Of a stretch of 20,644 nt of DNA, positions 10,632 to 20,270 are shown in pieces. The DNA lies in the IMG/VR virus record IMGVR_UViG_3300015360_000234, positions 1 to 20,644 of that record; one strand, 5' to 3'. A program made the translations under genes and the position numbers. Each line of letters begins with the position of its first letter. Positions within the stretch are counted from its first letter, which is position 1. Source of the stretch: a virus. The notes below the pieces were generated by a model, which did no database searches, had not been told where the DNA came from, and was given only the letters and a program-made list of their open reading frames with translations.

Positions 10632-10677
10632 GTCAACATGAGTCTAAAAGCGGGAGGACACCATTGCACACTTAATG
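10628..10677 (+). promoter_or_regulatory. Junction with minicistron, strong Shine-Dalgarno and ATT codon
   Basis: An ATG at 10628 overlaps the upstream TGA (ATGA) and opens a 15-codon frame (MSQHESKSGRTPLHT) that ends at TAA 10673-10675, overlapping the fibre ATG at 10675. Within it GGGAGGA (10652-10658) is the best ribosome site nearby, but it is 16 bases from the ATG and only 4 from an in-frame ATT at 10663. The two readings (AUU initiation, or coupling through the minicistron) are set out in the findings. Confidence 0.5.
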
Positions 10678-12105
10678 CCGAACCTCGTTCAAACATTTGT
10701 AGATTCAAACGGCGACGCCCTAGCTGGCGGTAAGGTTTACTTTTACGAAGCCGGAACTACTACGCCCTTGGCAACGTATCAAGATCAAGGTGAGATTACA
10801 CCAAACGCCAATCCTGTGATTTTGGATGCTAACGGGCAAGCGAATATTTGGCTTACGAACCAAGCCTATAAAATTGTTTTAAAAAACGCTGCCGACACCA
10901 CTCTAGTTACAAGAGATAACGTCACGCACATTGCGACGGGCTCAATATTAACCGCCCTTTTAGCTGATAATGCGGTCACTACGGTTAAGATTTTAAACAG
11001 CGCCGTGACGACTGCTAAACTTAACGACTCGGCGGTCACAACTCAAAAGTTGGCCCCCGACGCTGTCGATGGAACTAAAATAAAAGACGACGCGATAGAT
11101 TCAGAACATTACGTTGATGGGTCCATTGATACTGCACACTTATCTGCTGGTGCTGTAGCTCAAAGCAAAATTTCCGGCATCCTCACTTGGCAAAGAAAAA
11201 TTGTGACCAGCTCCCAGAGCGTCACTCTCCCAACACTCATGAACAGTAAAATTCGCGTGTTTGGCGCGGGCGCTGGCGGGGGCGGCGGAGGAGGCGGCGG
11301 TCGAGACACTGCGGGCGGCGGCGGGGGAGGAGCCGGAGCTGGTGGCGGTGGCGGTTCGCAGTATGGTTTTATATCGCTATCGGTTACGCCGGCTGAAACC
11401 ATAACCTTAGCTATTGGCGCGGGCGGCACAGCCGGCGCGGGCGGCACATCTGGAAGTAATAACGCTGTAGCGGGCAGTGCGGGCGGCAACACGACAATAG
11501 CAAATGTAGGGGGCGTTCTCCACACGTGGCGCGGCGGCGCTGGCGGCGGTCGAGGCGGCGGCGTTGACAACGCCGGCGGCGCTGGGGGCTCGACGCTTTT
11601 CGTAACGGGCGGCGCTGGCGGCACATCTGGCGGCACTAGTCAAAACGGTGGTGGCGGCGGCGGCGCGGGTCACTATGCATCAGTTGTTGGAACTCCCGCA
11701 GGCGGCAACGGGCCCTCTGATGCTGGGGGTTCTGCCACATGGTCAAGCGGCGGCGGTGGTGGGGCTGCCACACTTGACGGTGCCGGTGGTGATGGCGGTG
11801 CCGGTGGACTTTCTGACTGGATAACTACTGCATCCGTTGGCGGCGCCTCGCCGTCTGATGCGGGCGGCGGAGGAGGAGGCGGGGCCTCTTACGGCGCTGG
11901 CGGCGCGGGCGCCACAGGCGGCGATAATGGAGTTATACTTATCGGGGCGATGACCGGAGTGACCGCTACCGGAATAGGCGCGGGCGGCGGCGGCGGCGGC
12001 GGCTCAGGAAATAACCCAACAATGGGTGGTGACGGCGGCGCGGGAGCTCGGGGCGAAATTCATATCTGGGCATTCACTTCAGAGGCTTGGGCGGGCACAA
12101 TCTAA
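10675..12105 (+). CDS. Tail fibre with polyglycine-rich C-terminal receptor-type domain
   Basis: This is a 476-residue fibre or spike protein if it starts at ATG 10675; an ATT at 10663 may be the true start. Residues 1-90 (SNGDALAGGKVYFYEAGTTT ... NANPVILDANGQANIWL ... YKIVLKNA) form an N-terminal module common in phage fibres that dock onto the virion; the next gene has the same module. Residues about 95-165 are repeats of the type 'DNAVTTVKILNSAVTTAKLND', a shaft-like segment. From about 195 to the end the protein is dominated by Gly runs broken by short strands (YGFISLSVTPAETITLAIG; GVILIGAM). This resembles the glycine-rich fibre-tip domain in which polyglycine II helices pack as a sandwich, as in the S16 gp38 adhesin. 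It probably contacts the host surface. Its stop overlaps the next ATG (TAATG). Confidence 0.75.
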   Translation: MPNLVQTFVDSNGDALAGGKVYFYEAGTTTPLATYQDQGEITPNANPVILDANGQANIWLTNQAYKIVLKNAADTTLVTRDNVTHIATGSILTALLADNAVTTVKILNSAVTTAKLNDSAVTTQKLAPDAVDGTKIKDDAIDSEHYVDGSIDTAHLSAGAVAQSKISGILTWQRKIVTSSQSVTLPTLMNSKIRVFGAGAGGGGGGGGGRDTAGGGGGGAGAGGGGGSQYGFISLSVTPAETITLAIGAGGTAGAGGTSGSNNAVAGSAGGNTTIANVGGVLHTWRGGAGGGRGGGVDNAGGAGGSTLFVTGGAGGTSGGTSQNGGGGGGAGHYASVVGTPAGGNGPSDAGGSATWSSGGGGGAATLDGAGGDGGAGGLSDWITTASVGGASPSDAGGGGGGGASYGAGGAGATGGDNGVILIGAMTGVTATGIGAGGGGGGGSGNNPTMGGDGGAGARGEIHIWAFTSEAWAGTI

Positions 12106-14117
12106 TGGCACATTTATTACCATCACCAAAAATGCAGTTTTTTGACATCAACGGCGATCCGCTTTCAGGCGGAAAAGTAAACGCTTACGAGGCCGGAACG
12201 TCGACAAGAAAAGCCACGTACACAACTGCTGCGGCTGTGGTCGCAAATGCCAATCCTGTCATTTTAAATTCAAGAGGCGAGGCCAATATTTTTTGGTCCA
12301 CGGGCTCTTATAAAATCGTCTTAACCGATAGTGCCGATAGTGAGATTTACTCTGTTGATAGTATCACTCTCTCGGCGACTGGGGCGGCTGGCTCATCTTT
12401 TCGAGCCGGTTCAGGTGTGCCATCGGATGCATTAGGCTCGGACGGCGATAGATATTTAAGATCAGACACGGGCCAAATTTATTTAAAAGACTCTGGCGTT
12501 TATTCTGTTGAGAACACAATAAGCCTACCAGGGACGGCCATCGTAAACACTCCCTCGGGAAATCTTGCGGCAATAAGTGTTCAAGCCGCACTTAATGAGC
12601 TTCAAACTGACCTTGATACTCGGGCCACATCGACAGCTTTAAATGATCATATGATCGACACGTCTACTCACGGTGTGGGCGAAGTTCTCGGTCGAACAGA
12701 TTCCCAAGTGGTTACGAATAAATCAATTGATGCTGATTCAAATACGATAACCAATATTGAAAACGCAGACATAAAAGCGCTCGCAGCTATAGACGCAACA
12801 AAAATTGCAGACGGGTCCGTCACTAGTGCGGAGTTTCAGTACATCAATACTTTAACTTCAAACGCTCAAACTCAGATTAATGCTAAGGCCTCAACGAGTG
12901 ACTTGACCACGCACACTTCGGCGACGGTTGCGCACGGAACGGCTGGTGATATAGTCGGCACGACTGATACGCAGACACTCACAAATAAAACGGTTGGACT
13001 TGTTAACGGCCTGGTGGGCACCCCGAGCCTAAATTTCACGGCTGACACTGATACCGGAATTTATCGCATTGGCGCAGACTCAATGGGGCTTAGTGCTGGC
13101 GGGTTCTTAGGCGTTGAGGTCAAAAAGTCGACGGGCTCTTTTGCTAACATCGGCATGGGCGGCACAGCATCAGCGAGTGACCAAATACCGCTAACGTTAG
13201 AGCGTTCAAATACCTCGGCTGGTACTTACGTTGCAACGGTAAACACGAGCACTTCAGCAAATGCCTATGGCGGTTATCGCGCGACGAGCGATAATGGCGA
13301 CAGCGTTGTGGCTCTAAACACTTACACTGCGGCGTCAACTGTCACCGCGTTTATCTCACGCGCCGTTTTGCGCTCTGAGGGCAACACCACAGGCATTAGC
13401 ATTCTGCTACTCGGGTCAGGCGGGCAAGACATTCGCTTTTATCACAACGGCGGAGCTGCCACAGACGAGTCTGTCCGGATCAACACCGATAAATCATTTC
13501 AGTTTATGCGGCAGATTGCGACACCTGCAACGCCTGCATCGAACACAGTTAAAATGTATCAGAAATCGGACGACTCAATTTATGTGCTTAATGATTTGGG
13601 CGTTGAATCTAAGCTGTTAACGTCAGCCTCTGCTGTGGGCGGCGGTGGTGGGCTTCGATTTTTAGAAGGCGCAAATTCTCCAGTGCTAACATTTGAAAAT
13701 GAGTTGGAAGTTTACGAATATCAGCCGGGCCTTGCTCAAGAGCTTTATTTAGCAATTAGGGTTCCGGCATCTTACTCTTCCGGTTCCGCAATCAATTTAA
13801 GAATTCTTTGGACGTGCGCCTCTACTTCAGGGAATGCGCTGATCAATGCCGTGGCCACACTTATCAGGTCCGAAGTTGATGAGATCCAGTCCACTACAAA
13901 TCAGCGAACGACCACAAATGCGGCCATCACGCTAACTGTAAATAATGATTTAGAGCCTCAGAAAATCGCACTGGATATTTCAAGCAGCATCGGCCAAATC
14001 AATGCTGTTGACATAGTTGCAGGCGATTTAATTAAAGTCCGAGTCAAAGAATCTAGTTCAACTGTTGCGGACAATATCAAACTAATCCCAGACGCGAGTG
14101 AGGTATCATTCTCGTGA
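12105..14117 (+). CDS. Second tail fibre protein
   Basis: This protein of 670 residues starts at ATG 12105, which overlaps the previous stop. A TTG at 12087 in the same frame would add six residues, but homology to the first fibre begins at MAHLLP. Residues 1-90 repeat the docking module of the first fibre (DINGDPLSGGKVNAYEAGT; NANPVILNSRGEANIFW; YKIVLTDSAD). The middle has shaft-type repeats (VVTNKSIDADSNTITNIENADIK; TDTQTLTNKTVG), then NFTADTDTGIYRIGADSMGLSAGG, a pattern frequent in phage fibres. Residues about 350-480 are Ser/Thr/Gly-rich strands. After a GGGGG hinge near residue 515 comes a C-terminal beta-rich domain (LRFLEGANSPVLTFENELEVYEYQPG ...) that may be the receptor-binding or trimerising head. 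No enzymatic motif was seen. The TGA overlaps the next GTG start by 4 bases. Confidence 0.75.
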   Translation: MAHLLPSPKMQFFDINGDPLSGGKVNAYEAGTSTRKATYTTAAAVVANANPVILNSRGEANIFWSTGSYKIVLTDSADSEIYSVDSITLSATGAAGSSFRAGSGVPSDALGSDGDRYLRSDTGQIYLKDSGVYSVENTISLPGTAIVNTPSGNLAAISVQAALNELQTDLDTRATSTALNDHMIDTSTHGVGEVLGRTDSQVVTNKSIDADSNTITNIENADIKALAAIDATKIADGSVTSAEFQYINTLTSNAQTQINAKASTSDLTTHTSATVAHGTAGDIVGTTDTQTLTNKTVGLVNGLVGTPSLNFTADTDTGIYRIGADSMGLSAGGFLGVEVKKSTGSFANIGMGGTASASDQIPLTLERSNTSAGTYVATVNTSTSANAYGGYRATSDNGDSVVALNTYTAASTVTAFISRAVLRSEGNTTGISILLLGSGGQDIRFYHNGGAATDESVRINTDKSFQFMRQIATPATPASNTVKMYQKSDDSIYVLNDLGVESKLLTSASAVGGGGGLRFLEGANSPVLTFENELEVYEYQPGLAQELYLAIRVPASYSSGSAINLRILWTCASTSGNALINAVATLIRSEVDEIQSTTNQRTTTNAAITLTVNNDLEPQKIALDISSSIGQINAVDIVAGDLIKVRVKESSSTVADNIKLIPDASEVSFS

Positions 14118-15832
14118 AATATTTAATTTTACTCCTCTTATCTTTTCCAGCCTTCGCGACACTTAACAACGTCGACAAGGCAGAAATCTTTACTAAGAAC
14201 ATTATTAAAAACGGCGGCTTTGAGAATGGGAAAGCGGGATGGACGGCTAGTGGCGGTACTTTTACCACTGTTATTAGTGGGACTAATCTGCTCACCGGGG
14301 CCGTTTCGGCTACTTGGGACTCAGGCTCAGCATCTCAAACTCTAAGCTATGCCGCGATCACAATTCCAAAAGGTCTTTACGGCAAAAACGGAGTCGTGGC
14401 TTGTAAAATCCAAACACCGTCTGGCACTGCGACTCACTCGCTTTTGGTGACCGACGGGTCAGTGACCTTAGTGTCGGGAGCGGTTACGTCGTCCACTTTG
14501 CCAGCGTATGAGTTTAGGAACTTTATATTTCCCTCTAGTGGAACAGTGGTTTTAAGGTTTACGAGTGTCGCAGCAGATGAGCCGTTGATTGCAATTGATG
14601 ATTGCTTTTTAGGTGATGCTGCGGAAATTAATTTAACTTCAATTATCCCGCTAAATATTTTTAGTGCTCAGGTTTCAAGCGCCGACGCAGTGAGTGCGGA
14701 AAATACTGATTGGATAAGCGGAAACTGCACAAATGCCACAACTGGAAAAGCAACGTGTACATTCGTAACTGGGCACTTTACTGTTGCACCAAACTGCACA
14801 TGCACACAATTTCCCGGAGCCTCCGTCGCTGATAACACTTGCTCGATTGATACGTTAAGCTCGTCATCGGTCCTGCTGCAAACAAGTTCTAACGGAGCTC
14901 TGGCAGATCGGGCATTTGCTTTAAGCTGTCAGAAAGCCGGTATAGATGCGACGCAATCGGCATACCGCCCTGACGCTGTGACATTCCTCTGGGCAGGTAA
15001 GCATGGCAACGATTGCACATGGACTTCTGGCACAGCCACTCTCGCAGTTCCGAGTGGGGATGCAACATGTACGTTTTCCGATGATGTTAACGTCAACGCA
15101 GGCACTGTAGCGTCAACCTTTAATGGCGCACTTTCTCTAGCTCCCGGCATTACGTTCACTCCACCAACTGCCGGGGGCTATGAGATCTGTGTAACTGGGA
15201 ATCGTATGAGCGCCAACACTACGCCGGTTGGTCTTACTTGGGGCCTATACGTAGATTCAGTTCTCAAGAATGCTTCCGGCTATAACGTAGGAACCGGAGT
15301 TACGCACTCCAATACAATGTGCGTACCTATCGCGATTTCATCATCTGGATCTGCGAGTACAATTAGTCTAAGACTTGCAGCGAGTAGCGGGACTGCAAGT
15401 CTAAATGACGGGGCGGCCACGGCAGGGACTAGTGACATTCGGGCTCTTGTTTGGAGCATTAAAAAGCTCACTCAAAACATTCCCGCACCGCTTTTGGTTA
15501 ATTCTGTGACCAATACATCGAAGGGTGTAACTGGAATTGAGGCCGCAAACCTAAACTGTAGCGCCTCATCAGTAATCTTAAGTCAACGGGGCTCTTGGAT
15601 ATCGTCAATCGGAAATATCGCGACGGGAGCTTGCGTAGTTACAATTGCAGCAGGAACTTTTTCTGGAGCCCCCACTTGCAATTTGTCATCTACGGGCCTC
15701 GCAAATCCGAACGTGTTTTTGTCCGCTGGCGGGTCGCCGAGCGCCACGAGTTTAACAGTTGATTGCGATCTAGATGCGGGTGCGGACTGCACGACCTACG
15801 ACTTTAATGTGCTCTGCATGGGGCCGAAATAG
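14114..15832 (+). CDS. Secreted Cys-rich multi-domain adhesin-like protein with Sec signal peptide
   Basis: The 572-residue protein starts with GTG at 14114, inside the previous stop (GTGA). Residues 1-15 (MKYLILLLLSFPAFA) form a clear Sec signal peptide with an AxA cleavage site. Residues about 29-170, opening NIIKNGGFENGKAGWTASGG and closing IDDCFLGDA, look like a jelly-roll carbohydrate-binding module. Two related Cys modules follow at 200-272 and 495-568 (each begins WIS and ends in Cys, 73-74 residues). Between them (about 285-455) is a C1q/TNF-like strand pattern: FTPPTAGGYEICVTG and LTWGLYVDSVLKN. I count 18 Cys, unusual for a cytoplasmically assembled virion protein and suggestive of disulfides outside the cytoplasm. 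Position says tail fibre; the signal peptide says export. It may coat the host surface or be a fibre whose leader is kept. Function is inferred. Confidence 0.65.
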   Translation: MKYLILLLLSFPAFATLNNVDKAEIFTKNIIKNGGFENGKAGWTASGGTFTTVISGTNLLTGAVSATWDSGSASQTLSYAAITIPKGLYGKNGVVACKIQTPSGTATHSLLVTDGSVTLVSGAVTSSTLPAYEFRNFIFPSSGTVVLRFTSVAADEPLIAIDDCFLGDAAEINLTSIIPLNIFSAQVSSADAVSAENTDWISGNCTNATTGKATCTFVTGHFTVAPNCTCTQFPGASVADNTCSIDTLSSSSVLLQTSSNGALADRAFALSCQKAGIDATQSAYRPDAVTFLWAGKHGNDCTWTSGTATLAVPSGDATCTFSDDVNVNAGTVASTFNGALSLAPGITFTPPTAGGYEICVTGNRMSANTTPVGLTWGLYVDSVLKNASGYNVGTGVTHSNTMCVPIAISSSGSASTISLRLAASSGTASLNDGAATAGTSDIRALVWSIKKLTQNIPAPLLVNSVTNTSKGVTGIEAANLNCSASSVILSQRGSWISSIGNIATGACVVTIAAGTFSGAPTCNLSSTGLANPNVFLSAGGSPSATSLTVDCDLDAGADCTTYDFNVLCMGPK

Positions 15833-16038
15833 TGGAGGCCGAACTCCCCACTTCATTTTATACAGTCTTAGGTGTGCTCATATTTATGAGTGCGGGCTCT
15901 TTAATTAGTGGGATTGTGATGTTAGTTAAGGTCGCTTTATGGATTGGCGAATTCAAAGAAAAAATAAGCAGAGCGGAGCAAGACATAAACGCCGCTCATT
16001 CACAAATAAGAGAATTAAAAAACTGTAAGGAGAAATAA
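15832..16038 (+). CDS. Small membrane protein of the lysis block
   Basis: This 68-residue protein starts with GTG at 15832, overlapping the previous stop by one base (TAGTG). One strong membrane segment covers residues about 10-36 (FYTVLGVLIFMSAGSLISGIVMLVKVALWI). A charged helical tail follows (GEFKEKISRAEQDINAAHSQIRELKNCKEK), probably a short coiled-coil. This topology is common among small phage proteins next to holins, including antiholins and accessory lysis factors, but no family is recognised with certainty. It could also be an inner-membrane spanin of minimal length. The AAGGAGA ribosome site of the next gene lies in its last codons, and the stop is directly adjacent to the next ATG. 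The role in lysis is inferred from its neighbours. Confidence 0.6.
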   Translation: MEAELPTSFYTVLGVLIFMSAGSLISGIVMLVKVALWIGEFKEKISRAEQDINAAHSQIRELKNCKEK

Positions 16039-16221
16039 ATGGAGTCGAAAAAACCTTGGGCATCAAAGTCATTATGGCTTGCACTAATTAGCGCGGTCGC
16101 TGCTTTTTTTCCAAGTGTACAGCATTTCATGATTTTAAACCCAGAGGCTTATGCGATGGGAATTGGCGCTTTGTTCGCAGTCCTTCGTTTAGTTTCAAAA
16201 GATAAAATCGTAATTAAATGA
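16039..16221 (+). CDS. Holin-like protein
   Basis: This is a 60-residue protein with two predicted membrane segments (about 11-26, LWLALISAVAAFFPSV, and 37-52, AYAMGIGALFAVLRLV), basic residues at the N-terminus (ESKKPWASKS) and a basic C-terminus (SKDKIVIK). The opening 'KPW.SK..W', followed by a second segment ending 'R(L/V).(S/T)K', is a pattern seen in many small phage holins. A holin would open the inner membrane at a set time so that the NlpC/P60 enzyme downstream can reach the cell wall. AAGGAGA at 16027-16033 is ideally spaced before the ATG. The stop overlaps the next ATG by 4 bases. The call rests on topology, size, recognised pattern and lysis context. Confidence 0.7.
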   Translation: MESKKPWASKSLWLALISAVAAFFPSVQHFMILNPEAYAMGIGALFAVLRLVSKDKIVIK

Positions 16222-16460
16222 GTCCCGAATTTTATCTGGGCCTCACACTTGGTGCGGCGGTTACGTACCTAGTGAGAAACGTGATGATAGCCCTTGAGGG
16301 ACCAAAAGATGAACTACAAAAGAAACTTAACGAGTGTATGCTTCAGGCTATCCGCCGTGATGCTGAGCTTGTTGTTAATGATTACACCCACGAAGAGCTT
16401 GTGCGAGCCATCGGTGCCGGACTTAAATCTATCCCACCAAGAGACAACAAACCTCGGTGA
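16218..16460 (+). CDS. Spanin-like inner-membrane protein (candidate i-spanin)
   Basis: This 80-residue protein has an N-terminal membrane segment (residues about 5-27, FYLGLTLGAAVTYLVRNVMIAL) and a charged, helical remainder (EGPKDELQKKLNEC ... RRDAELVVNDYTHEELVRAIGAGL), ending in a Pro-containing basic tail. One N-terminal membrane anchor with a helical exported domain is the topology of Rz-type inner-membrane spanins, which join an outer-membrane lipoprotein to fuse the two membranes at lysis in Gram-negative hosts. The gene is entered through an ATGA overlap from the holin-like gene, and another membrane protein gene starts inside it in the +1 frame, as in many Rz/Rz1 pairs. It is shorter than lambda Rz (153 residues), so the call is tentative. 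Confidence 0.55.
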   Translation: MSPEFYLGLTLGAAVTYLVRNVMIALEGPKDELQKKLNECMLQAIRRDAELVVNDYTHEELVRAIGAGLKSIPPRDNKPR

Positions 16461-16629
16461 GTATATTCAAACTTGCGAAGTCGAGAAAAAAGTCTGTGCT
16501 GCGACAGCTAGACTTTTAACCGATTGCGAGTTTAGAAACGAGTGCCGTCCTAAATTAGTACCTATGATTTCAGCGGTATTTTTAGGCTTACTAACTGGCG
16601 TTGCGGCGGGGCTTTATCTTGGAAAGTGA
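16309..16629 (+). CDS. Overlapping membrane protein (candidate spanin partner or u-spanin)
   Basis: This 106-residue protein starts within the previous gene in another frame and overlaps it by 152 bases. I choose ATG 16309 because GAGGGA (16296-16301) is 7 bases upstream; the in-frame TTG at 16294 has no such site. The N-terminus has a signal-like hydrophobic stretch (RLSAVMLSLLLMITP) followed by KSLCEPS. The Cys at residue 32 is where a lipoprotein Cys would be, but the residues before it (K-S-L) do not fit a standard lipobox. A Cys-containing helical part (YIQTCEVEKKVC ... TDCEFRNEC) precedes a C-terminal membrane segment (about 83-105, VPMISAVFLGLLTGVAAGLYLG). An N-terminal export signal plus a C-terminal anchor is the layout of one-piece spanins such as T1 gp11. 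The role is inferred. Confidence 0.55.
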   Translation: MNYKRNLTSVCFRLSAVMLSLLLMITPTKSLCEPSVPDLNLSHQETTNLGEYIQTCEVEKKVCAATARLLTDCEFRNECRPKLVPMISAVFLGLLTGVAAGLYLGK

Positions 16630-16643
16630 GAGGCGGAATTAAA

Positions 16644-17069
16644 ATGGGAAACCTAATTGTCCGATATGCATTCTCTTTTGTTGGCCTTCCTTATCGCTGG
16701 GGCGGAGACGACAGCATAAATGGTTTTGATTGCTCTGGCCTGGCGCTAGAAATTCTTGCAGCCTTTGGCTTCAAACATCCAGACATGACAGCCTCGGGCC
16801 TTTATATCTGGTGCAAAACATCAAGTTTTAGAGAAGAAATTCGGCCCGGCTCACTCGTGTTTTTCGGTAAAGCTGGAAACATTTCCCACATAGGCATTGC
16901 CGTGAATTCGGATCTAATGGTTGAGGCTGGCGGAGGGAACTCATCAACTACGACCCTTGAGTCTGCGGTCAATCAGAACGCCTACGTCAGGCTTCGACCA
17001 ATAAAATCCAGACAAGACTTTGTGGGGGCTTTTTATCCGCCCTATCGCGTCTCTACAGTTGTGGTTTAA
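16644..17069 (+). CDS. NlpC/P60-type endolysin (cell wall peptidase)
   Basis: This 141-residue protein is a single NlpC/P60 domain, a papain-like cysteine peptidase that cuts peptide bonds in peptidoglycan (typically gamma-D-Glu to diamino acid). The sequence FVGLPYRWGGDD-INGFDCSGL carries the catalytic Cys30. The His is in GNISHIGIAV (His82). The third polar residue is probably in the following VEAGGGN strand. I place the start at ATG 16644, with GGCGGA 6-8 bases upstream, because homology begins soon after it; GTG 16626, overlapping the previous stop, would add six residues (MRGGIK). There is no signal peptide, so release needs the holin-like protein upstream. It closes the lysis block and the late operon. 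Being single-domain and small is usual for Gram-negative hosts. Confidence 0.8.
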   Translation: MGNLIVRYAFSFVGLPYRWGGDDSINGFDCSGLALEILAAFGFKHPDMTASGLYIWCKTSSFREEIRPGSLVFFGKAGNISHIGIAVNSDLMVEAGGGNSSTTTLESAVNQNAYVRLRPIKSRQDFVGAFYPPYRVSTVVV

Positions 17070-17101: not shown

Positions 17102-17184
17102 ATTGTCTGTACATGGTTTAATAGAGCTGGCGGGGAAGAGATTGAATTTTTAGAGGCTCCATGGATGGGGCCCTCGTCATTATT
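17102..17184. repeat. Direct repeat, left copy (flanks hicAB cassette)
   Basis: Starting ATTGTCT and then CATGGTTTAATA, this copy matches 18411-18492: the 73-base core (17112-17184) agrees at 69 positions, in the same orientation. The core holds a small inverted repeat GGCTCCAT/ATGGGGCC (one G-T pair). It begins about 30 bases after the endolysin stop, and the hicB stop codon (17180-17182) lies inside it. No T-run follows the inverted repeat on either strand, so it is not a standard terminator. On the minus strand it holds a 20-codon frame (17118-17180). Confidence 0.85.
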
Positions 17185-17617
17185 CTTCTGATACAACAAT
17201 AAGATCTATCATCAACTCAGGAAAAACCTTTTTCAGTTTTGATAGAGTAGACAATTCTGGATTGCATGTCTTGGGTGACTCAAGCTTTTGATAAGCATAG
17301 GTGCTATTAAATCCAAGCTGCGTGGCTACCTTTGCCTGGGTAAGTCCTTTTTCAGAGCGCAAAAATCTGAGCATTACTGCAAGCGCTACTGATGGCCTAA
17401 CCTGTACTGCCAAAATTGGTTTTTTACCCGGATGCTCTTCTGGCAGAGGGAAGACTTTTTTAGACTCTTCCGGCTCAGACAAATAGAGGTTTAGTGCCTC
17501 CTCAGCGTTTTGCGCAAGCTCACCGAGCGTGTCACCTTGAGTAATGCACCCATCTAACTCTAAGCACTCTGCCCAAAATCCTTTGGTCTCTTTATGTATT
17601 CTAAAATGATAAACCAC
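17180..17617 (-). CDS. hicB: HicB antitoxin with C-terminal HTH domain
   Basis: This 145-residue antitoxin pairs with the HicA mRNA interferase. Residues about 1-48 (YHFRIHKETKGFWAECLELDGCITQGDTLGELAQNAEEALNLYL) are the HicB partial RNase H-like fold that covers the toxin. Residues about 80-135 hold an Xre-type helix-turn-helix (GLTQAKVATQLGFNSTYAYQKLES), giving DNA binding and autoregulation. The start is GTG, with AAGGAG 6 bases upstream that overlaps the end of hicA; only 3 bases separate the two genes. The pair runs opposite to the phage late genes. The stop codon is inside the left direct repeat, so the cassette edge coincides with the gene end. Such pairs stabilise mobile DNA or act in phage defence; which applies here cannot be told. 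Confidence 0.85.
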   Translation of the reverse strand: MVYHFRIHKETKGFWAECLELDGCITQGDTLGELAQNAEEALNLYLSEPEESKKVFPLPEEHPGKKPILAVQVRPSVALAVMLRFLRSEKGLTQAKVATQLGFNSTYAYQKLESPKTCNPELSTLSKLKKVFPELMIDLIVVSEE

Positions 17618-17620
17618 TTG

Positions 17621-17803
17621 TCACTCCTTCACTGCGAGTGTTTTTAAAAGCGCGTGTTCCAATCCTTTTTTTAGTTCCTTATGCATTGGTATCGTTTGTC
17701 TCTCAGTGCCTCTCCCCAAGATAACGTGTGAACCCTTTTGCCTAAGAACAGTCCAACCGTTCTTTATGTAAAGTTTCAGCATTTCGTTACCACTCATCGG
17801 CAT
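17621..17803 (-). CDS. hicA: HicA toxin (mRNA interferase)
   Basis: This 60-residue toxin has the small double-stranded-RNA-binding-like fold of HicA, which cleaves mRNA and stops translation until bound by HicB. The family core is visible: MSGNEMLKLYIKNGWTVLRQKGSH, with the catalytic His at residue 26, then VILGRGTERQTIPMHKELKKGLEHALLKTL. I start it at ATG 17803 because AGGAG lies about 7 bases upstream; an in-frame TTG at 17821 falls ahead of that site. The gene order hicA-hicB with almost no gap is the usual one. All family landmarks are present, so the toxin looks intact. It is transcribed from the palindrome-containing promoter just upstream. Confidence 0.85.
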   Translation of the reverse strand: MPMSGNEMLKLYIKNGWTVLRQKGSHVILGRGTERQTIPMHKELKKGLEHALLKTLAVKE

Positions 17804-17825
17804 CGCACTATCTCCTAACAAGTCT

Positions 17826-18623: not shown

Positions 18624-18806
18624 GACATCGCCTTGTGCGATGTCCCCAAGCGAAGCGCGGGAGTCCTCTCCCCTGACCTAGCCCAAAAGGGCCAAAAGAC
18701 GCAGGCCGCTTGTAGGGGGTGCCGGGGGAGACTTGGCGGAGCGCGAGGCGCGCGGACTCAAGTCATCGCTTCCCCCGGCGCGGAGACCCTTGCCTTAAGG
18801 CAGGGG
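18624..18806. other. GC-rich segment with a series of hairpins (IS left end or structured RNA)
   Basis: Five inverted repeats follow one another: GACATCGC/GCGATGTC (18624-18644); GGGAG/CTCCC (18659-18672); GCCC/GGGC (18681-18692); a nested structure with outer arms GCCGGGGGA (18721-18729) and TCCCCCGGC (18771-18779), inner arms GACTTG/CAAGTC and a GCGC/GCGC tip; and CCCTTGCC/GGCAGGGG with loop TTAA (18787-18806). The last two overlap the 3' end of tnpA. The first may be the left-end hairpin for TnpA. The rest exceeds what an IS end needs and could fold as RNA on either strand. Confidence 0.5.
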
Positions 18807-19218
18807 AGGAAGCGCGGTCCGGGGTTTTCTGGTTCTGAATATAGGCCTTTAGAACCTCAAGGGGCGCGCCGCCAACAGACCCCGCGAAATAAGAAGGAGA
18901 CCATAGCCCCCCCTTCCAATACTTGTCTGCTATGTCAGGTCGGCTCTGCCTTAATCGACGGCTAGAGACGCCCTTAAGGGAATTTACTAGGGCAGCAAGA
19001 GATATCTTTGGGGGATAAGTCACCAACAAGTGAACGTGATCCCTTTCGCCATTAAATTCTTTCAAGTCTGTCTCAAAATCCGCACAGACTATTCGAAATA
19101 TTTTTTGTAATTCTTCTATTGCGCCTAGGTCAAATACGTTTTTACGGTACTTGGGGACAAATACAAGGTGCGCATGAAGGTTAAATACAACATGCCTCCC
19201 TTTTCTTAATTCAGACAC
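18763..19218 (-). CDS. tnpA: IS200/IS605 transposase TnpA (Y1 HUH type)
   Basis: This 151-residue transposase cuts and rejoins single-stranded DNA at the element's hairpin ends. The opening RHVVFNLHAHLVFVPKYRKNVF is typical. The HUH metal motif is DHVHLL (His61, His63), and the nucleophile is Tyr126 in the C-terminal helix (AYIQNQ). FNGERDHVHLLVTYPP and SLKGVSSRRLR are family landmarks. The start is GTG with AGGA about 8 bases upstream. Everything needed for activity is visible. The last 16 residues (ASSPALRQGSPRRGKR) are Pro/Arg/Ser-rich, unlike a usual TnpA end, and are coded over the hairpin at 18787-18806 that resembles the right-end hairpin, so the natural 3' end may have been replaced or extended. 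It probably acts as a dimer, as known for this family. Confidence 0.85.
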   Translation of the reverse strand: MSELRKGRHVVFNLHAHLVFVPKYRKNVFDLGAIEELQKIFRIVCADFETDLKEFNGERDHVHLLVTYPPKISLAALVNSLKGVSSRRLRQSRPDIADKYWKGGLWSPSYFAGSVGGAPLEVLKAYIQNQKTPDRASSPALRQGSPRRGKR

Positions 19219-19254
19219 TTGAAATCCTATCTAAGACCAAGTATAATTGGTCTG
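19219..19254 (+). promoter_or_regulatory. tnpB promoter with central palindrome
   Basis: TTGAAA (19219-19224), a 17-base spacer and a perfect TATAAT (19242-19247) form a near-consensus sigma70 promoter facing tnpB. The predicted start, about 7 bases after the -10, is the GTG of tnpB itself. A perfect palindrome AGACCAA (19234-19240) / TTGGTCT (19247-19253) is centred on the -10 box. The minus strand of the same bases reads TATACT, a possible -10 for tnpA, so the site may control both genes. Confidence 0.65.
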
Positions 19255-20270
19255 TGATAATAACCTACCAATTCAGAATTAAAGATTCAAGCAGAAAAAC
19301 CAAGCTAAAAAGGTTAGCAGGGACCACTAATTTTGTTTGGAATTACCTCAATGCCACGTCTCGTTTTGCTTGGAAACGAGACCGAAAATGGTTATCGGAG
19401 TTTGATTTAAACTACCTTTTGATTGGAGCTAGCCGAGAACTCGGACTCCATAGCGACTCAGTTTCTTCTATCTCCGCTGAGTTTACCTCTCGCAGAAAAA
19501 AGGCGAAAAGGTCAGGTCTTAGCTGGAGGAGTGCTAAGAGGAAGCTTGGCTGGGTTCCATTTAAGGGAAGGGCCATCAAGGTTCAGGGTGACGAAGTAAC
19601 TTTTCAGAAAACCAAATATAGATTTTGGAAGTCTAGAGAAATTCAAGGTGTGATAAAAACTGGAAGCTTCAATCAGAACTCTAAGGGACAATGGTTTGTT
19701 AACTTTCAATGTGAGGTCCCCCAAGCTGAACAATCTAAATCGAATAGTTCAGTAGGGGTTGATCTTGGTCTCAAAACTTTAGCCACTTTGTCAGACGGCT
19801 CTAAGATTGAAAACCCTAAAACACTTCAAAAGTACGCTGATAAGTTGGCAAAGGCACAAAGAGCTAGAAAAACTAGGCAGGTCGCTAGTATTCACAATAA
19901 AATCAAGAATGTTAGAAAAGACTTCCAACACAAAGAATCAACGAAACTTGTAAATAAATTTGGAAACATTTTAGTGGGCGATGTGAGCAGCACCAAACTT
20001 GTAAAAACTAAGATGGCGAAATCTGTCTTGGACGCAGGTTGGGGAATGTTCAAAGTGATGCTTGAATATAAAGCCAAACGGCTTGGCGTTACTTTTAGTG
20101 TCGTTCCAGAAAAATACTCCAGCGTTACTTGCTCGATTTGCCTCGAAAGAAGTGGACCGAGTGGACTAAGTGATCTGGGGGTAAGAGAATGGTTATGCAA
20201 AAGCTGTGGCGTGGTCCATGACCGCGACATAAATGCTGCGCAAAACATACTTCTCGGTCTAGGGCGTTAG
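19254..20270 (+). CDS. tnpB: TnpB, RNA-guided nuclease of the IS element, altered RuvC-II site
   Basis: This 338-residue TnpB (ISDra2 TnpB has 408) belongs to the nucleases that use an omega RNA made from the element's 3' end to cut DNA next to a short motif, favouring retention of the element. The N-terminus TYQFRIKDSSRKTKLKRLAGTTNFVWNYLN is typical. RuvC-I has Asp170 (GVDLGLKTLATLSDG). RuvC-III has Asp325 (HDRDINAAQNIL). The zinc finger uses Cys293, Cys296, Cys315 and Cys318. In RuvC-II the usual Glu of '(I/V)xxE(D/N)L' is replaced: ILVGDVSS has Gly242, followed by Asp243. Glu286 in VVPEKYSS could take over, as described for TnpBs with rearranged active sites (from memory). The GTG start at 19254 has no ribosome site and coincides with the predicted transcript start. 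The frame is intact. Confidence 0.85.
   Translation: MIITYQFRIKDSSRKTKLKRLAGTTNFVWNYLNATSRFAWKRDRKWLSEFDLNYLLIGASRELGLHSDSVSSISAEFTSRRKKAKRSGLSWRSAKRKLGWVPFKGRAIKVQGDEVTFQKTKYRFWKSREIQGVIKTGSFNQNSKGQWFVNFQCEVPQAEQSKSNSSVGVDLGLKTLATLSDGSKIENPKTLQKYADKLAKAQRARKTRQVASIHNKIKNVRKDFQHKESTKLVNKFGNILVGDVSSTKLVKTKMAKSVLDAGWGMFKVMLEYKAKRLGVTFSVVPEKYSSVTCSICLERSGPSGLSDLGVREWLCKSCGVVHDRDINAAQNILLGLGR

Follow-up and report, generated by a model that had tools for sequence, protein, structure and literature searches.

A tail-fibre-coupled, cysteine-rich, probable phage adhesin with a Sec leader: a possible virion part completed outside the cytoplasm

Tailed phages are taught as being built entirely in the cytoplasm. 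This also holds for gp38 of T2/S16-type phages, a separate adhesin encoded directly after the fibre gene gp37 and carried on the fibre tip, which is not known to have a leader or a disulfide pattern and is unrelated in sequence to the protein described here. The closest known kind of system is that of the branched receptor-binding proteins (RBPs) of Escherichia phages G7C and K1-5 and of the Klebsiella KP32, KP34 and Menlow groups (PMC6872550). There, a virion-anchored first fibre carries a T4gp10-like docking domain, a second RBP, the product of the following gene, is attached through a conserved N-terminal peptide of 7-29 residues, the specificity part is freely swapped, and export does not figure in the account (PMC6872550). 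Here we analyse a gene at 14114-15832 (+) of a complete 20,644-base IMG/VR virus record (IMGVR_UViG_3300015360_000234; this whole stretch is called the window), which reads as a fragment of a P22-like podovirus. As in the branched systems, the gene directly follows that of a presumably virion-anchored fibre with a putative docking domain, and its product would be a second RBP with a short conserved N-terminal peptide. By sequence, the locus would differ from these in four ways. The adhesin would be exported and held by disulfide pairs, docking would take place on another kind of domain (a jelly-roll tip that closes the fibre C-terminally), and signal peptidase would create the docking end. We propose that leader cleavage exposes the peptide of an exported, Cys-paired adhesin, in contrast to the branched systems.

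Within the fibre group the gene comes third. It has a GTG start and a TAG stop, encodes 572 amino acids and overlaps the preceding fibre gene by four bases (GTGA). In that fibre the N-domain is followed by stalk repeats, a Gly-rich linker and the C-terminal tip domain; it has one Cys and is without a leader. The parts of both genes are as follows (CBM, carbohydrate-binding module; MAT, mosaic adhesive trimer; pLDDT, predicted local distance difference test).

12087..14117, + strand: upstream tail-fibre gene with a P22/T7-type fibre N-domain (FFDINGDPLSGGKVNAYEAGT) and an N-terminal match to phrog_26190
13665..14114, + strand: fibre "tip" domain of 150 amino acids, modelled as a CBM-like jelly roll (pLDDT 94.8); the constant companion of the exported gene
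14100..14104, + strand: GAGGT, ribosome-binding-like site for the exported gene, read directly
14114..14158, + strand: Sec leader MKYLILLLLSFPAFA, with signal peptidase I cleavage predicted after AFA
14159..14185, + strand: TLNNVDKAE, motif at the mature N-terminus, by which the protein is proposed to dock on the tip domain
14192..14623, + strand: N-domain, residues 27-170, CBM jelly roll with FENGKAGW and the Cys97-Cys164 pair
14651..14932, + strand: second domain, residues 180-273, 6 Cys, low model confidence
14981..15469, + strand: TNF/C1q-like domain, residues 290-452, with Cys301-319 and Cys359-403; structural match to the tip of the Bdellovibrio MAT fibre Bd2734
15527..15826, + strand: C-terminal domain, residues 472-571, family-specific; 28 of the 30 aligned members retain Cys522-568

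The N-terminus reads MKYLILLLLSFPAFA|TLNNVDK, with K in the n-region, YLILLLLSF as h-region and PAFA as c-region. This 15-residue leader combines a positive n-region, a hydrophobic h-region and small residues at -3 and -1 (an AxA-type site) with the lack of a lipobox Cys at +1, as expected for Sec export and signal peptidase I. It passes a consensus leader scan, as do 9% of shuffles of the first 30 residues. All 18 Cys lie in the mature part. The signal peptide with its AFA site, the GTGA coupling within the fibre group and the 18 Cys had been read from the sequence in an earlier note, and all three hold up. Sec export of the window protein is well supported, with cleavage predicted from the sequence.

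Searches of IMG/VR returned at first 4 and then 12 distinct relatives (contigs are given by handles such as L016). All 12 are leadered and lie downstream of a gene ending in the tip (its last ~130 residues); in L016 a GIY-YIG-like gene separates the tip from its partner. Read by eye, this is a GIY-YIG/HNH-like homing-endonuclease gene (L016:7208-8017), inserted exactly between the tip and adhesin genes. With the tip alone as bait 46 loci were found, and in 29 of 29 further non-repeat contigs with a readable next gene a family protein adjoins the tip, leadered in 27. The window, L065, the first 12 and these 29 form a module set of 43, which L166, added later, brings to 44 contigs; the leader is present in 42 of them. 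The module, a fibre protein with the conserved C-terminal tip followed by the adhesin gene, occurs in podo-, sipho- and myovirus-type genomes. Its tip is attached to many unrelated fibre N-termini, in L020 and L022 to little beyond a Gly linker, and in L006, L025, L040 and L069 the adhesin gene stands between the fibre and other tail genes. Mean column identity is 49% for the tip and 29% for the exported protein, as expected if the tip is the adaptor and the exported protein the specificity part. One contig, L045, encodes a leader and a bare tip, with no adhesin downstream.

Leaders were called by the simple consensus scan together with reading by eye. The scan flags 39 of the 42 members leadered by eye (those of L033, L061 and L062 were missed by the scan and read by eye), neither of the two leaderless members, and 28 of 393 controls, i.e. 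other open reading frames of at least 150 amino acids in tip-bearing loci (Fisher p ~5e-32). Several of these 28 are themselves exported fibre-group or lipoprotein genes. When relatives were fetched by the C-terminal half only, a bait with which the N-terminus cannot bias the choice of members, the new Cys-rich members with a readable start were again leader-like. Leader-like N-termini stand even before a fibre stalk (L162, L164, L168 and L169; L157 is less clear), and the properties of the leader are preserved across members despite sequence drift. A low-Cys subfamily (110 loci, about 70 of them read) consists mostly of ordinary leaderless fibre proteins, with ~12 real leaders.

The mature parts of the complete leadered members (n = 38) contain 2 to 18 Cys. 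The number is even in 36 of the 38, compared with 52 of 113 control proteins with at least two Cys (Fisher p 3e-8, which takes no account of relatedness), and the density is 1.87 per 100 residues in leadered relatives versus 0.59 in controls. Members found later mostly have even numbers as well (L166 is odd, with 11). Both leaderless members have five Cys, and neighbouring leaderless fibre proteins have few, often none; in the low-Cys leaderless subfamily 29 of 50 are even, and parity is uninformative there. Among 30 aligned members, counted as both present/both absent/mixed, the columns Cys97-164 (21/9/0), Cys93-139 (7/23/0), Cys522-568 (28/2/0) and Cys359-403 (15/13/2) change together, and the columns 507-559 and 301-319 associate too. 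Even numbers and pairwise conservation are what disulfides would leave. Since the Cys are gained and lost pairwise, they are best read as disulfides, and the protein would then fold in an oxidising place. Disulfides are well supported, their formation being predicted from the alignment.

An AlphaFold2 model computed with 30 family members has a mean pLDDT of 77.8 and is good at residues 30-170, 290-452 and 472-571. The carbohydrate-binding and C1q-like folds that had been suggested earlier are real in this model and in the fold search. Residues 26-170 form a CBM jelly roll (8xmz, Z 17.4; CBM4, Z 17), which also matches the CBM-like domain of the K2-2 TSP, Kp7 gp52 and CBA120 TSP4 tailspikes (Z 14-15). 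These tailspikes differ in being enzymatic beta-helix proteins that are not known to carry a leader. The similarity to CBM_4_9 (Pfam PF02018) is one of fold only, as it scores 13.6 bits (E 0.088) against a gathering score of 25.9, and searches of family libraries gave no named family for the window protein. Residues 290-452 superimpose on the fibre tip of Bd2734 (8OKW) with Z 16.6 and a root-mean-square deviation of 2.4 over 147/152 residues. The family profile also finds 8OKW by sequence (E 6.8e-14), via an extra TNF-like domain that relatives carry ahead of the one retained in the window; with the window sequence alone 8OKW was not found by sequence. The MAT fibres of Bdellovibrio, in which TNF-like tips with disulfides act as adhesins (PMC10769870), share with the window protein a signal peptide, a fibre architecture and, especially in Bd2734 (PDB 8OKW), a homologous TNF/C1q-like tip domain. 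They differ in being bacterial, chromosomal and displayed on the predator, and their N-terminal beta-rich domain of ~130 amino acids reportedly lacks a homologue in the PDB (PMC10769870), in contrast to the CBM N-domain here (Z 17), a comparison made by description. By architecture, the window protein is probably an adhesin, and the model suggests glycan binding. In the fold search the fibre tip matches nothing but CBM-like jelly rolls (best Z 9.6), and its profile found no solved chain by sequence.

A profile survey of loci of both N-domain subfamilies gave a near-clean split by tip presence. With a tip upstream, the adhesin begins at its N-domain and is stalkless; without a tip it usually follows a fibre stalk of its own or some other N-terminal segment, exceptions with short N-termini being L069, L168 and several low-Cys members. 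In MW202898, an uncultured complete podovirus and the single INPHARED match of the low-Cys subfamily, leader, fibre stalk and adhesin form one chain, whose stalk shares with the leaderless fibre of the window a stretch of 43 residues at 63% identity. Fusion in cis in some phages and a tip with a separate chain in others is a classical sign of partners. Furthermore, a motif (consensus LTEVDKAE) lies directly at the predicted cleavage site. Its score, computed leave-one-out and anchored at the cleavage sites, has a median of 13.6 in 37 Cys-rich tip-linked members and does not exceed 2.8 in any of 14 leadered proteins without a tip (p 7e-8); among low-Cys tip-linked members two have the motif and three do not. 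Distances between tips correlate with those between N-domains (r 0.26, p 0.006) and not with those between C-domains (r 0.03). On the basis of the tip/stalk split, the link between motif and tip and the N-domain correlation, we therefore propose that signal peptidase exposes a docking peptide.

Natural pairs of leadered and leaderless proteins bear on the place of action. Leaderless L025 begins M|SLTARDKAELG, while the related leadered L040 reads A|AITDRDKAELG across its predicted cleavage site. The fibres of L014 (leadered) and L023 (leaderless) share 56% identity along the whole mature chain (AGKIQ vs M|AGKLQ), and the daisy-chain genes L014:6855 (leadered) and L080:3567 (leaderless) are 49% identical in the C-terminal domain. 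The leader can therefore be added or dropped with the mature start unmoved. Both leaderless relatives in the module set keep gene position and coupling. Because such relatives exist, one of them with the same mature start, the working place should be reachable without export before lysis; judged from these sequences, the place shared by both forms must be the virion or else the medium, once the cell has lysed, and an obligatory surface role before lysis is correspondingly disfavoured. The earlier note had held that leaderless homologues at equal spacing would speak against export. They occur in 2 of 44 contigs, so that export cannot be obligatory throughout the family, while export of the window protein itself stands.

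A longer array was seen in L014 (4738-9695), where one leaderless fibre gene is followed by four consecutive leadered fibre-group genes (6140, 6855, 7309, 8001). C-terminal domains recur between leadered and leaderless neighbours (GQ.LVLIG.S...LSDG.GLSLNG), and the region resembles a fibre of daisy-chained segments, some of them exported.

Comparison across the family shows the leader, the paired Cys, the fixed partnership with the tip, the link between motif and tip, and the folds. We consider it slightly favoured (probability about 0.55) that the window protein is a detachable receptor-binding part of the tail fibre, which is exported, oxidised and docked at lysis. Translation would be coupled to the upstream fibre gene, and the chain would pass through Sec and be cut by signal peptidase I after AFA. 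In the oxidising periplasm the mature chain would fold and its Cys would form disulfides (nine pairs are possible). The exposed TLNNVDKAE would dock on the tip at the C-terminal end of the fibre, which would already be on the virion made in the cytoplasm. Virion-borne tip and periplasmic adhesin would meet at or after cell lysis, so that assembly of the virion would end outside the cytoplasm; glycans on the host surface would then be bound by the CBM-like and TNF/C1q-like domains. Small lipobox lipoproteins encoded near the lysis genes of relatives, e.g. L009:9765 and L014:9710, suggest diderm hosts, in which the exported chain would halt in the periplasm. Late joining of a fibre part is chemically plausible, as particles in extracts are known to take up P22 tailspikes and T4 tail fibres. 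More tentative, and in our estimate just short of even odds, is the broader claim that a virion subunit is routinely made via Sec, oxidised in the periplasm and joined at lysis through a peptide created by signal peptidase, and that in phages of the L014 type the distal fibre is assembled wholly outside the cytoplasm. A literature search, largely outside subscription papers, found no report of Sec-exported tail-fibre parts. If the proposal is true, a periplasmic step is added to virion maturation in podo-, sipho- and myovirus-type phages, phages gain disulfide-stapled adhesins, and host range depends on the Sec/Dsb function of the host. Leadered and leaderless counterparts whose mature starts are identical put the question within direct reach of experiment, and a ready-made coupling tag could come from the tip with its short motif.

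Several observations weigh against docking at lysis. The tip-bearing protein is itself leadered in seven contigs (L013, L014, L016, L029, L032, L033 and L045), where the fibre too would need to be joined from outside. About nine tip-linked members (L035, L041, L009, L028, L053, L004, L014, L065 and L054) have a weak motif or none, and the same holds for leaderless L031. The correlation between tip and N-domain is modest, and inheritance as a module alone could explain part of it. Moreover, the p-values are too small because the sequences share ancestry. Given its CBM-like fold, the tip could be a receptor-binding domain of its own. Finally, neither the Cys-rich protein nor the tip has a homologue among INPHARED phages and plasmids, i.e. 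there is no cultured relative.

The earlier note had left two roles side by side, binding or blocking of the host surface before lysis and joining of particles outside the cytoplasm. The second fits better, in view of the tip linkage, the cis fusions, the restriction of the motif to tip-linked members and the leaderless relatives. A blocker exported to periplasm or surface before lysis, masking the glycans used by the fibre so that superinfection is prevented or progeny are not wasted on the dying cell and its debris, is unlikely, even though leader, late operon position and glycan-binding folds would suit it and bacterial MAT fibres, whose tip domain is related, do arrive at the surface of the predator (PMC10769870). 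Such a protein requires neither a fixed link to the tip nor fusion to stalks in cis, no signal for crossing the outer membrane before lysis was seen in the window protein sequence, and the two leaderless relatives keep place and coupling, one of them also the mature N-terminus.

An adhesin that stays in the periplasm until lysis and is then free in the medium, as a decoy, in aggregation or coating debris, with no stable attachment to the virion, could get to its place with or without a leader. Multivalent lectin-like domains would be suitable for this; the obligate tip and the tip-specific mature motif are left unexplained, and we regard this as rather improbable.

Still less probable is a host-type surface adhesin carried by the phage, which would change the attachment of its host, e.g. 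a predatory bacterium, as in a MAT-like lysogenic conversion. The TNF-like domain does match B. bacteriovorus Bd2734 by profile and fold, and MATs likewise combine a leader with fibre architecture. Against this, the gene precedes the lysis group and is coupled to a late fibre gene, no evidence of integration was seen, and among 84,980 species genomes the family matches only phage contigs of one contaminated-looking bin; the sequence of the window protein itself found no homologue in that scan. An uncleaved hydrophobic N-terminus anchoring or inserting in the fibre during the usual cytoplasmic assembly is the least credible explanation, since the leader properties kept through drift, the AxA-type sites, the even and pairwise Cys and the motif right at the cut outweigh the short leader (15 residues), the leaderless relatives at the same place and the fact that export is predicted from sequence.

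The bin just mentioned (G001, Candidatus Dependentiae AWTP1-30) was rejected as an indication of the host. It comprises 2.4 Mb compared with ~1 Mb for genomes typical of the phylum, its matching contigs C21 and C81 are phage-like and belong to this adhesin family, and none of 100 other Dependentiae genomes gave a match. Consequently a Dependentiae host is not accepted, and the phage contigs are likely mis-binned. The nearest cultured relatives of the window coat protein and of the L009 baseplate protein are too distant for naming a host, and the match to the Bdellovibrio MAT tip is a lead only.

In the window, genes for portal, scaffold, P22-type coat, connector and DNA-ejection proteins are followed by the fibre group of three genes, then by a small set of lysis-type genes and one for an NlpC/P60 protein. 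Two genes delimit the stretch downstream of the adhesin gene:

15832..16038, + strand: following gene, small protein with one transmembrane segment, first of the lysis-type group
16626..17069, + strand: NlpC/P60 lysin-like gene, marking the end of the late group

The first fibre gene (10675-12105) encodes a long Gly-rich C-terminal domain resembling other phage RBPs, and its product is a candidate second RBP of the phage. At 16218-16629 two genes overlap in different frames, the inner one with a leader-like N-terminus, Cys and a C-terminal transmembrane segment. This is a possible spanin-type pair, and similar proteins also occur in L005 and G001:C81. Adjoining the lysis-type genes, a HicA/HicB-like toxin-antitoxin pair was recognised by eye (17180-17821, - strand). 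An IS200/IS605-type element at 18763-20270, with a TnpA-like transposase (-) and a TnpB-like gene (+), is possibly a recent insertion.

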